From Chloroflexota bacterium (GTDB lineage Bacteria; Chloroflexota; Dormibacteria; Dormibacterales; Dormibacteraceae): 33,768 bases of DNA. The DNA lies in NCBI GenBank assembly GCA_005889085.1, contig VBDS01000018.1, positions 1-33,768 of the forward strand, written 5' to 3'. Both the position numbers and the translations under genes were made by a program. Of the stretch, positions 3,202 to 22,837 are shown piece after piece. Every line of letters begins with the position of its first letter. Position 1 is the first letter of the stretch. Below the pieces are notes generated by a model. That model made no database searches. It saw only the letters and a list, made by a program, of their open reading frames with translations, and was not told where the DNA came from.

Positions 3202-3266
3202 GTGCGTTTTACGCAGCTCGCACATATGGCGGAGTTCTCAAACGAGCATTTTGCGCAAGACGTCTA
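3202..3266 (+). repeat. Paired 42-bp-spaced motif, locus 1
   Basis: GTGCGTTTTACGCA at 3202 and GAGCATTTTGCGCAAGA at 3244; start-to-start 42 bp. Confidence 0.6.
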
Positions 3267-6722: not shown

Positions 6723-9011
6723 ATGGCCAAGCCCGCCCGCCGTGTTGGCAACCTTCCCGCCGAAGCGACCAGCTTCATCGGCCGCCGCCGCGAGCTGGCC
6801 GAGCTGCGCAAGAAGCTCTCATCGGCGCGGGTCGTGAGCCTGGTGGGACCGGGAGGCGTGGGCAAGACCCGCCTCGCCATTCGAGCGGCAACCGACCTAT
6901 CACGCGGGTTCCGGAATGGCGCTTGGCTCGTCGAGCTGGCCGAGGTGCAGGACCCGGCATTGGTCGGCAACGCGGTGATGGCGGCGCTCGACCTGCGCGA
7001 CCAGGCTGCGACCGAGCCGTTCGCCCTGCTGCGCACCTACCTCGCCGACAAGGAGCTGCTGCTGCTGCTCGACAACTGCGAGCACCTCCTGGAGGCGGTG
7101 GGCGAGCTCGTCAACGAGGTGGTCAGGGCGTCGCCCGGCGCGCGGGTCATGGCGACGAGCCGCGAGCCGCTGGATGTGCCGGGGGAGCACGTCCTCCCCA
7201 TCCCCCCTCTGGAGCTGCCCACCGCAGATGGAGGCCGGCTGGAGCAGAACGAAGCGGTGATGCTCTTCGTCGAGCGGGCAGCAGCAGCTTCGGGGACATT
7301 CGACCTGACCGCGTCGAATCGGTCGGCGGTCGCCGACGTGTGCCGGCGGCTTGATGGCCTGCCGCTGGCGATCGAGCTTGCGGCAGTTCGGACACGAGCG
7401 CTTTCTGTCGAGCAGATCCTCGAGCGCCTGAGCGACAGGTTCAGCCTCCTGGTGGGCGGTGGCCGCGCCGCGCTCCCCCGGCACCAGACCCTGCAGACCA
7501 CAATCGAGTGGAGCCACGATCTGCTTTCGGCCGCCGAGCGGACGCTGCTGCGCAGGCTTTGCGTGTTCGCGGGGCGATTCACGCTGGAGGACGTCGAGGG
7601 CATCTGCCCTTCTGACGAGCTGGCCGCCGGCTCGGTGCTCGATTCGCTGTCGTCGCTGGTCGACAGGTCGCTCGTCATCAAGGAAGACGCACGCGGCCAG
7701 GCCTGCTACCGCCTGCACGAGACGATGCGTGAGTACGCCGTCCTCAAGCTAAGGGAGGCCGGAGAAGACGAGACCCTCGGGGAACGCGCCACCGAGTACT
7801 ACGTGCTCAAATGCGCCGCGACCGGACCTCCTGGCAGATATCGGCTGGCCGAGTGGCTCGGATGGATGGAGCTCGAGATCGATAACGTCCGCGCCATCCT
7901 GCGGCACTGCTTGACGCGAGGGGACTTCTCGCGCGGGGTTGACCTGGTCGCGTCGCTCGGTTGGTTCTGGATCACGCGCGCGACCACCGAGGGCGTGCGG
8001 TGGTTGGAGGAGATGCTCGCGCCGGCCGAGGGTAACTCGGAGGGGCTGGCGTGGGCGTGCTTCCTGCGTGGGTTCCTGGCCGTGCTGCAGAACGACCCGC
8101 TGTCGGCTCGGCCGTGGCTGGAGCGCGCGACGGCTGCCGCCACCGAACTTGGTGATCTGGCGCTCCTCACGCAGGCGTGCGCGATGGGGTCGATCGCGGC
8201 GATGTCGGCGGGCGACCGCACCGCCGCGGACGCGCTGCATGAGGAGGCGCTGACGGCGCTGGCGGGCGCCAACGACCTGGCGGCCACGACGGCGGTCCTC
8301 CAGACACGAGCTTTCAATGGGATGTTCACGGGCGAGCTCGACGCGGTCCGAGAGGCGTCTACCGAGGGCGTGCGGCTGAGCCGGGAGGCCGGCGACCTCT
8401 ACGTGCTCGAGATCATGCTGATGGAGCTGGCCTTCTCTCTTCTTATGGCGGGCGACCTTGACGGGCCGAGGCCGCTCTACACGGAGGCTCTGCAGATCGC
8501 GCGCCGGATCGACGACCGGCTCGTTCAGTCCTATCTGATGGCCGCGTTCGGCTACTACGCGGCATTGGCTCGCCACGGACGGCTGGCGGCCCAGTTATTG
8601 GGGGCTGCGGAGTCGACACGCCTGGGAGCGGGCGCAGCAGTGATTGCGCCGATGGCGCCGATGATCGCCCAGACGGAGGAGACCGCGATCGCCCTGCTGG
8701 GTCAGGCGAGGTTCGACGATGAGTTTGGCGCGGGCAAGCGAATGAACCGAGAGGCCGCGATCGCGCTGGCGCTGGGCGAGTCAGGCCAGGCTGCCAGGGC
8801 TTCCGGCGCCTCCAGTGACAGCGCCCTTGGCGGGCTCGGGCGGCGAGAGGCCGAGGTGGCTCGGCTGATCGCCGAAGGCCTCAGCAACAGGCAAATCGGG
8901 GCGCGCCTGTTCATTTCCGAGCGCACCGTGGACAGCCACGTGCGCAGCATCCTGAACAAGCTCGGCTTCAACTCCCGGGCCCAGATCGCCGGCTGGGTCG
9001 CGAGGCGGTAA
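6723..9011 (+). CDS. NB-ARC/AAA-type ATPase LuxR-family transcriptional regulator
   Basis: P-loop LVGPGGVGKTRLA, LLLLDNCEHLLEAV, VMATSREPL; C-terminal LuxR HTH RREAEVARLIAEGLSNRQIGARLFISERTVDSHVRSILNKLGFNSRAQIAGW. Confidence 0.95.
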   Translation: MAKPARRVGNLPAEATSFIGRRRELAELRKKLSSARVVSLVGPGGVGKTRLAIRAATDLSRGFRNGAWLVELAEVQDPALVGNAVMAALDLRDQAATEPFALLRTYLADKELLLLLDNCEHLLEAVGELVNEVVRASPGARVMATSREPLDVPGEHVLPIPPLELPTADGGRLEQNEAVMLFVERAAAASGTFDLTASNRSAVADVCRRLDGLPLAIELAAVRTRALSVEQILERLSDRFSLLVGGGRAALPRHQTLQTTIEWSHDLLSAAERTLLRRLCVFAGRFTLEDVEGICPSDELAAGSVLDSLSSLVDRSLVIKEDARGQACYRLHETMREYAVLKLREAGEDETLGERATEYYVLKCAATGPPGRYRLAEWLGWMELEIDNVRAILRHCLTRGDFSRGVDLVASLGWFWITRATTEGVRWLEEMLAPAEGNSEGLAWACFLRGFLAVLQNDPLSARPWLERATAAATELGDLALLTQACAMGSIAAMSAGDRTAADALHEEALTALAGANDLAATTAVLQTRAFNGMFTGELDAVREASTEGVRLSREAGDLYVLEIMLMELAFSLLMAGDLDGPRPLYTEALQIARRIDDRLVQSYLMAAFGYYAALARHGRLAAQLLGAAESTRLGAGAAVIAPMAPMIAQTEETAIALLGQARFDDEFGAGKRMNREAAIALALGESGQAARASGASSDSALGGLGRREAEVARLIAEGLSNRQIGARLFISERTVDSHVRSILNKLGFNSRAQIAGWVARR

Positions 9012-9037: not shown

Positions 9038-9102
9038 GTTCGTTTTGCGCAAAAGGCGCGTCTCACGCCGGGTTGATACGTGCGTTTGGCGCAAAAGATC
9101 CG
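9038..9102 (+). repeat. Paired 42-bp-spaced motif, locus 2
   Basis: GTTCGTTTTGCGCAAAAGGCGCG (9038-9060) and GTGCGTTTGGCGCAAAAGATCCG (9080-9102); 18/23 identical, start-to-start 42 bp. Confidence 0.75.
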
Positions 9103-12997: not shown

Positions 12998-13073
12998 TGG
13001 AGCCCACGCCCGGATTCGAACCGGGGACCTTTTCCTTACCAAGGAAATGCTCTACCGCCTGAGCTACGTGGGC
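12998..13073 (-). tRNA. tRNA-Thr (anticodon GGT), CCA encoded
   Basis: Minus strand GCCCACG TA GCTC AGGCGGTA GAGC A TTTCC TTGGTAA GGAAA AGGTC CCCGG TTCGAAT CCGGG CGTGGGC T CCA: full cloverleaf, anticodon GGT. Confidence 0.97.
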
Positions 13074-21760: not shown

Positions 21761-21825
21761 GTGCATCTTGTGCAGAAAGCTCCATTCGCGGGCCGGCCAA
21801 ACGTGCGTTTTGCATGAAACGCTCC
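21761..21825 (+). repeat. Paired 42-bp-spaced motif, locus 3
   Basis: GTGCATCTTGTGCAGAAAGCTCC (21761-21783) and GTGCGTTTTGCATGAAACGCTCC (21803-21825); start-to-start 42 bp. Confidence 0.65.
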
Positions 21826-22704: not shown

Positions 22705-22837
22705 ATCCAGATATACGCACGCAACGCGCACCCGGTAACGCCTCGTTGGCGCCAACGGAGCTGAATTTTCGCGTTCCACAGGCACCGCTGGATACAACGA
22801 GGCCAAAAAGGTCGGTGTCGATCGGTCGCGGCGCGGG

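Follow-up and report, generated by a model that had tools for sequence, protein, structure and literature searches.

We have found that doublets of matching core flank the genes of one protein family and are inverted to each other at the two ends of the gene; this is the key finding of the study. The doublets, each made of two 22-bp palindromes at a nearly fixed distance, and the nuclease genes that they border suggest that soil Chloroflexota carry a type of small mobile DNA that has not been described before. With a probability of about 0.7, the motif represents an end standing alone, or a cognate site, of a small nuclease-coded mobile element that resembles the REPIN-RAYT system but has other machinery. 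Computation gave the geometry, dispersal and position of the doublets, the matching of cores between ends, the gene association and the predicted folds. The observation from which the work started, a paired motif recurring at three loci of one contig, is confirmed, and it extends further than first described.

The window, which is the whole stretch of DNA that was analysed (33,768 nt; contig VBDS01000018.1 of a Chloroflexota bacterium, a soil MAG), contains four intergenic doublets of 22-bp palindromes, all spaced at exactly 42 bp, three of type A and one of type F:

3202..3265, unstranded: degenerate type A doublet; boxes 3202-3223 and 3244-3265; spacing 42
9038..9101, unstranded: type A doublet; box 1 9038-9059 GTTCGTTTTGCGCAAAAGGCGC, 20-bp spacer, box 2 9080-9101 GTGCGTTTGGCGCAAAAGATCC; spacing 42
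21761..21824, unstranded: degenerate type A doublet; boxes 21761-21782 and 21803-21824; spacing 42
22740..22803, unstranded: type F doublet, absent from the original prediction; GCCTCGTTGGCGCCAACGGAGC and GCACCGCTGGATACAACGAGGC; spacing 42

The original prediction placed two cores at 9043-9054 and 9085-9096. Both are there, the first exact (TTTTGCGCAAAA) and the second with one mismatch (TTTGGCGCAAAA). The pairs said to recur at 3207/3249 and 21766/21808 also exist and, as claimed, all three loci are intergenic (by our own gene calls) with cores exactly 42 bp apart, but these two pairs are far more degenerate than the title of the prediction implied (TTTTACGCAGCT; ATCTTGTGCAGA; TTTTGCATGAAA), and only the 9038 copy is near the quoted consensus. 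Cores with at most two mismatches number three in the window against 0.28 expected. The GGCAACG string reported upstream of loci 2 and 3 is present; we gave it no weight. The 9038 doublet begins 26 bp downstream of the stop codon of a forward-strand gene ending at 9011, while the doublets at 3202 and 21761 each lie between convergent genes. An orthologous doublet corresponds to the 3202 copy in the related genome G013 (L160), where the region is 93% identical. The segment 9016-12990, which includes the 9038 doublet and the genes up to about 12.6 kb, is absent from both G013 and G011; it adjoins a conserved tRNA at 13001-13073 and resembles a variable tRNA-linked spot.

An RNA element was considered and rejected: a single tRNA was the only Rfam match within the window, and no palindrome compensation was seen inside the boxes of A/B doublets. 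When folding was compared with that of shuffled sequences, two window copies were no better (z 0.18 and 1.02) and two others were better.

That the spacing of the doublets is under constraint, as originally proposed from constant spacing with divergent spacers, is well supported because three lines of data agree. First, in a scan that assumed no core and looked for any two similar palindromes in intergenic DNA, a peak appeared at 41-43 bp and nowhere else (genomes G013, G008 and G011), with many unrelated cores contributing. G013 (492 kb of intergenic DNA) had 16 pairs at 42 bp and at most one at any other distance; G008 had 10 pairs at 41 and 9 at 42. Sampled stretches of G005 gave three pairs at 41-43 bp, and sampled stretches of G003 and of three genomes of another family gave none at those distances. 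Second, a scan covering spacings of 39-45 returned 95 distinct doublets, 64 of them at 42, 26 at 41, three at 43 and one each at 44 and 39; type A uses 42 or 41 and the other types nearly always 42. Third, all 20 doublets of G012, whose loci had been chosen by a single box only, have the exact 42-bp spacing, although identity falls from 90% in the boxes to 42% in the spacers. These data fit helical phasing no better than a fixed distance determined by the unit or its protein, and many type A doublets have 41 bp.

The repeat unit is a 22-bp palindrome (GNGCGTTTTGCGCAAAACGCNC), usually with a 4-bp centre, present twice, and such paired palindromes are dispersed in dozens to over a hundred scattered copies. 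The dispersed repeat that had been offered as an alternative is also a correct description. The source genome (G000) has at least 43 A/B doublets, plus type F copies. Exact palindromes occur six times genome-wide against none in the reversed control, and GYGCGTTTTGCGCAAA with up to three mismatches occurs 60+64 times against 19+26 for the reversed pattern. These counts put the core well above chance across the genome, and the doublets are mostly intergenic. Strong boxes are seldom alone (37 of 39 in G013 have a partner). At locus L353 (G014 C200) at least three boxes stand in tandem at 42 bp on either side of a gene, so arrays longer than two exist.

Several core types share this geometry. In G000, type A is TTTTGCGCAAAA and type B is TTWGGCGCCWAA, and both boxes of an A/B pair are of one type except for one hybrid and a few borderline boxes. 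Contamination of the bin as the source of two core types was rejected since A and B co-occur on contigs C11, C197 and C222. Only 2 of 16 genus mates are enriched for the A/B pattern, G008 (type A) and G013 (type B). Type C (GGATAGTCCGGACTATCC) is present in most genus genomes with up to 75 box matches, the reversed control being zero throughout; type F is frequent in two genomes, with 37 box matches in G000 and 60 in G013, where the reversed control gave none. Outside the genus, a type H core was observed in G018 of genus g3 (27 matches versus 5 in the reversed control). In a scan of the whole GTDB with the A/B doublet, genomes with several matches were related Chloroflexota MAGs only, and the remaining matches resemble single chance matches. 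The GTTAGGC/GCCTAAC of type B recalls an integron attC; this reading was dropped because types A, C, H and J lack GTTAGGC/GCCTAAC and because the copies lie scattered and do not form arrays. The same genus also has a different dispersed hairpin repeat, CTCCCCAT..ATGGGGAG and similar sequences (L177 4149-4258, L203 2117-2217 and L209 2363).

The doublets keep to a particular place between genes. In tandem gene pairs, as called by our own codon-score caller and not by standard annotation, 36 of 48 doublets begin no more than 30 nt past the upstream stop codon and 39 of 48 are nearer to that stop than to the next start. At one and the same intergenic site relatives may carry another core type: B versus A (L181 and L040 against G008), A versus C (L004 against G011), and A or B versus an F-like doublet (L032, L051 and the window's 21761 copy against G013). 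The site may also be empty, as at L003, L049 and L182 in G013 and at the orthologous gap of 21761 in G008. Since the exact position in some type-switched pairs is displaced by tens of bases, a single preserved site explains the data less well than several insertions into gaps that permit them. Sister species differ in which doublet types they carry, in a patchy manner. Some type H spacers are common to several copies, which suggests copying of the whole unit.

Such placement after stop codons, a fixed distance with variable spacers, and the stem and loop sizes fit REP dimers and REPINs (PMC3733652, PMC3116915), and the general features listed for REP dimers are all found here (palindromes of 20-40 bp, intergenic, near ORF 3′ ends, forming dimers; PMC3733652). 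As in those families, there are several repeat families per genome and a nuclease gene is bordered by the same repeats; moreover, the consensus type A doublet folds as a single hairpin. Nevertheless, a classical REP/REPIN moved by a Y1 (RAYT) transposase, with the nuclease genes as passengers or targets, is strongly disfavoured and must be rated very improbable, and membership in RAYT/REPIN was rejected. A Y1/HUH transposase (PF01797, Y1_Tnp) was found in 0 of 17 genus genomes, while control genomes (Escherichia coli and others) match. GTAG/CGTC-type tags (also TGTC and CCTC) beside the palindromes were seen at 1 of 190 outer and 0 of 190 inner flanks. Covariation of a hairpin between boxes is absent as well: in 68 A/B doublets the box-to-box correlation is direct (z +4.3, persisting after orienting) and not inverted (z −3.1), that is, head to tail. 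Further differences from REPINs are the full 22-bp palindromes, the single 42-bp spacing across unrelated cores, and the AbiEi-EDxHD/Vsr-like protein in place of the transposase.

The gene family was first met between doublets about 1 kb apart (picked for closeness). Members are present in 17 of 17 genus genomes, and several of these genes are interrupted by stops or have split frames. Among 30 genus loci, a doublet stands 5′ of the gene in 23, 3′ in 16 and on both sides in 14, compared with 5, 4 and 0 for 238 control genes in the same windows; flank windows and score thresholds were chosen during the analysis. At least one doublet accompanies 25 of the 30 loci versus 9 of the 238 controls, and 20 of 24 once the six discovery loci are set aside. 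Outside the genus, doublets with new cores occur at 13 of 15 loci in other genera or families, at distances 42 (18 times), 41 (once) and 29 (once) in a histogram that also includes two loci of G000 and G008. The 5′ end at G062 C251 is identical to that at G000 C244, and that of the G017 locus is nearly identical to the one at G000 C49; binning error or transfer is therefore possible and the count would become 11 of 13. Likewise, G075:C425 and G003:C27, supposedly of different families, hold gene copies with the same alignment scores. Such agreement across supposed families suggests mis-binned contigs or recent transfer.

The two ends of a locus match each other. Read inverted, the outer boxes at 5′ and 3′ agree at 17.8 of 22 positions within one element and at 8.8 of 22 between elements (23 two-ended loci, a few sampled twice), so that two-ended loci carry terminal inverted repeats of matching sequence. 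Because the boxes are near-palindromic, their orientation was judged from how outer and inner boxes differ, for instance in L341 and L355. Cognate genes could be assigned to core types B (G000 C49), F (G000 C172), A-like (G008 C111) and J (G005 C45), and to type C at several loci; they were not detected for type A in G000 or for types B or F in G013, these MAGs being incomplete. A gene with inverted, sequence-matched ends and many gene-less copies recalls IS elements with MITEs. Here, unlike in those, the gene-less copies resemble one end and not two joined, and no transposase domain was recognised in the five members scanned (Pfam, NCBIfam). Gaps in relatives are not precise, and target duplication was not found.

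The protein is predicted to be an AbiEi-antitoxin-like DNA-binding part fused to an EDxHD/Vsr-type nuclease. Pfam assigns the family to DUF559 (E about 1e-8 to 1e-10; 5e-10 in one scan); MTES_1575 endonuclease, Vsr and AbiEi_1 also left traces, all of them below threshold. AF2 gave a model of high confidence (pLDDT 89.6, pTM 0.83). Its residues 202-304, the C-terminal third, match the homing endonuclease I-Bth0305I (3r3p; Z 13.2, rmsd 2.1) and, with Z 9.5, 1vsr; together with DUF559 and 3hrl these matches indicate an EDxHD/Vsr-like catalytic fold. E249, D251 and H255 are conserved. Profile search of the PDB gave 3hrl at E 1.3e-6 and 3r3p at just 0.74, and the link to I-Bth0305I therefore rests on the fold. 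The N-terminal two thirds (residues 15-198) of the model have the fold of the DNA-binding protein AbiEi (6y8q; Z 12.6, Foldseek E 3.7e-6); the high rmsd of this superposition, 7.4, suggests shifted subdomains. AbiEi binds 23-bp inverted repeats in pairs (PMC7319586) and I-Bth0305I acts as a dimer on a target of nearly 60 bp (PMC3943268), which by analogy makes a two-palindrome target plausible for the fused protein.

A phage or plasmid origin was rejected: type A/B doublets searched for in viral contigs were not found, no relative of the protein was confirmed in IMG/VR, and the only relatives, from one phage record and six plasmid records of Actinobacteria, are about 30% identical. In a Tsukamurella plasmid record (L415), paired TCCCGCGGGA palindromes 56 bp apart lie on both sides of a relative of about 28% identity, one pair starting some 260 bp upstream of the gene and the other 57 bp before the gene's 3′ end; an Arthrobacter locus (L411) has one palindrome on either side of a relative. 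Actinobacteria may thus use the same principle at a different spacing.

The main rival to the mobile element takes the doublets as operators. The AbiEi-nuclease would be a regulator or defence protein repressing itself through the 5′ doublet, the dispersed copies would be its regulon or silencing sites, and nothing would move. AbiEi and Rv2827c, of type IV toxin-antitoxin systems, do autoregulate through 23-bp repeats in their own promoters (PMC7319586), and the excess of 5′ over 3′ doublets (23 versus 16 of 30) agrees with this. Box conservation could also be read this way, type B boxes differing between G000 and G013 by about 8.5% and spacers by about 22% (eight shared loci, partly chosen for core match). 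The present protein differs from AbiEi in being nuclease-fused, and its sites in being palindromes 42 bp apart that stand at both gene ends and genome-wide. Against operators, the dispersed doublets lie after stop codons and not in promoters, an orthologous site can lack a doublet or have one with a different core, a second, inverted 3′ doublet accompanies 14 of 30 genes, and point mutation is an unlikely source of dozens of complete 64-bp sites that all belong to one type. We regard the operator reading as unlikely overall, even if a lone 5′ doublet could be an autoregulatory operator.

Less probable still is that the doublets are older host repeats, such as roadblock terminators or nucleoid sites, beside which homing endonuclease genes settled because the doublets are their cleavage targets. 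A gene that homed into such a site would end up between two doublets, doublets far outnumber genes, and the nuclease part resembles a homing endonuclease; against this, individual genes in different genera each have their own matching core type, so that site and gene travel or evolve together, and doublet types are distributed patchily among sister species. EDxHD homing endonucleases are similar in the fold of the catalytic domain and in their long dimeric target; they differ from the present proteins, for which no intron or intein was seen, in which the DNA-binding part is AbiEi-like, and which come with palindrome-doublet ends and dispersed solo copies. Among the roles first suggested for the motif, a cooperative binder or recombinase-type protein remains plausible, given the AbiEi-like/nuclease genes bordered by doublets, but nucleoid organisation as a main role is unsupported because the core varies by type and species, orthologous sites can be empty or switched, and copies border nuclease genes.

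In the mobile-element reading that we prefer, the full element would consist of a gene of roughly 0.9 kb, coding for an AbiEi-like part and an EDxHD/Vsr-like nuclease part, and of a doublet at each end. Both doublets, each with its 22-bp palindromes at a distance of 42 bp, would have the same core and lie in inverted orientation. The AbiEi-like part would bind the two palindromes, and protein subunits paired over the roughly 64-bp doublet would fix the 42-bp distance. The nuclease part would then cut at or near the doublet, and repair or strand transfer would copy the element or a bare doublet elsewhere, mostly to places just past stop codons, which tolerate insertions. Many element types would arise as protein and core diverge jointly. 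After gene loss, solo doublets would persist and decay, as the three type A copies of the window may have done. Binding, cutting and mobility are here what we infer. We give even odds to the stronger proposal that this nuclease, measuring 42 bp between palindromes, is the only protein of a new class of mobile element, and that protein and core have co-diversified into dozens of specificities, leaving swarms of solo doublets after stop codons.

Some observations count against a mobile element. A clean empty site with target duplication was not found in relatives, where the cleanest gaps differ by more than the doublet. Many genomes have a doublet type with no detected cognate gene (the MAGs are incomplete), and lower-ranked, often decayed gene copies have doublets at 11 of 20 loci, two of the 20 repeating earlier loci. 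The direct-repeat correlation in solo A/B doublets is no simple consequence of an origin from terminal inverted repeats.

The literature search covered a library of open-access papers and found none linking DUF559 to transposons; the novelty of the element is therefore provisional. The finding links the DUF559 (domain of unknown function) family to dispersed repeats whose geometry follows a strict rule. If the mobile-element reading is true, it would be a second, non-homologous route to the repeat dispersal known from REPIN-RAYT, it would provide a natural series of nucleases and sites with equal geometry and different cores, useful for studying the evolution of specificity, and it would predict the role of many annotated AbiEi-DUF559 genes.
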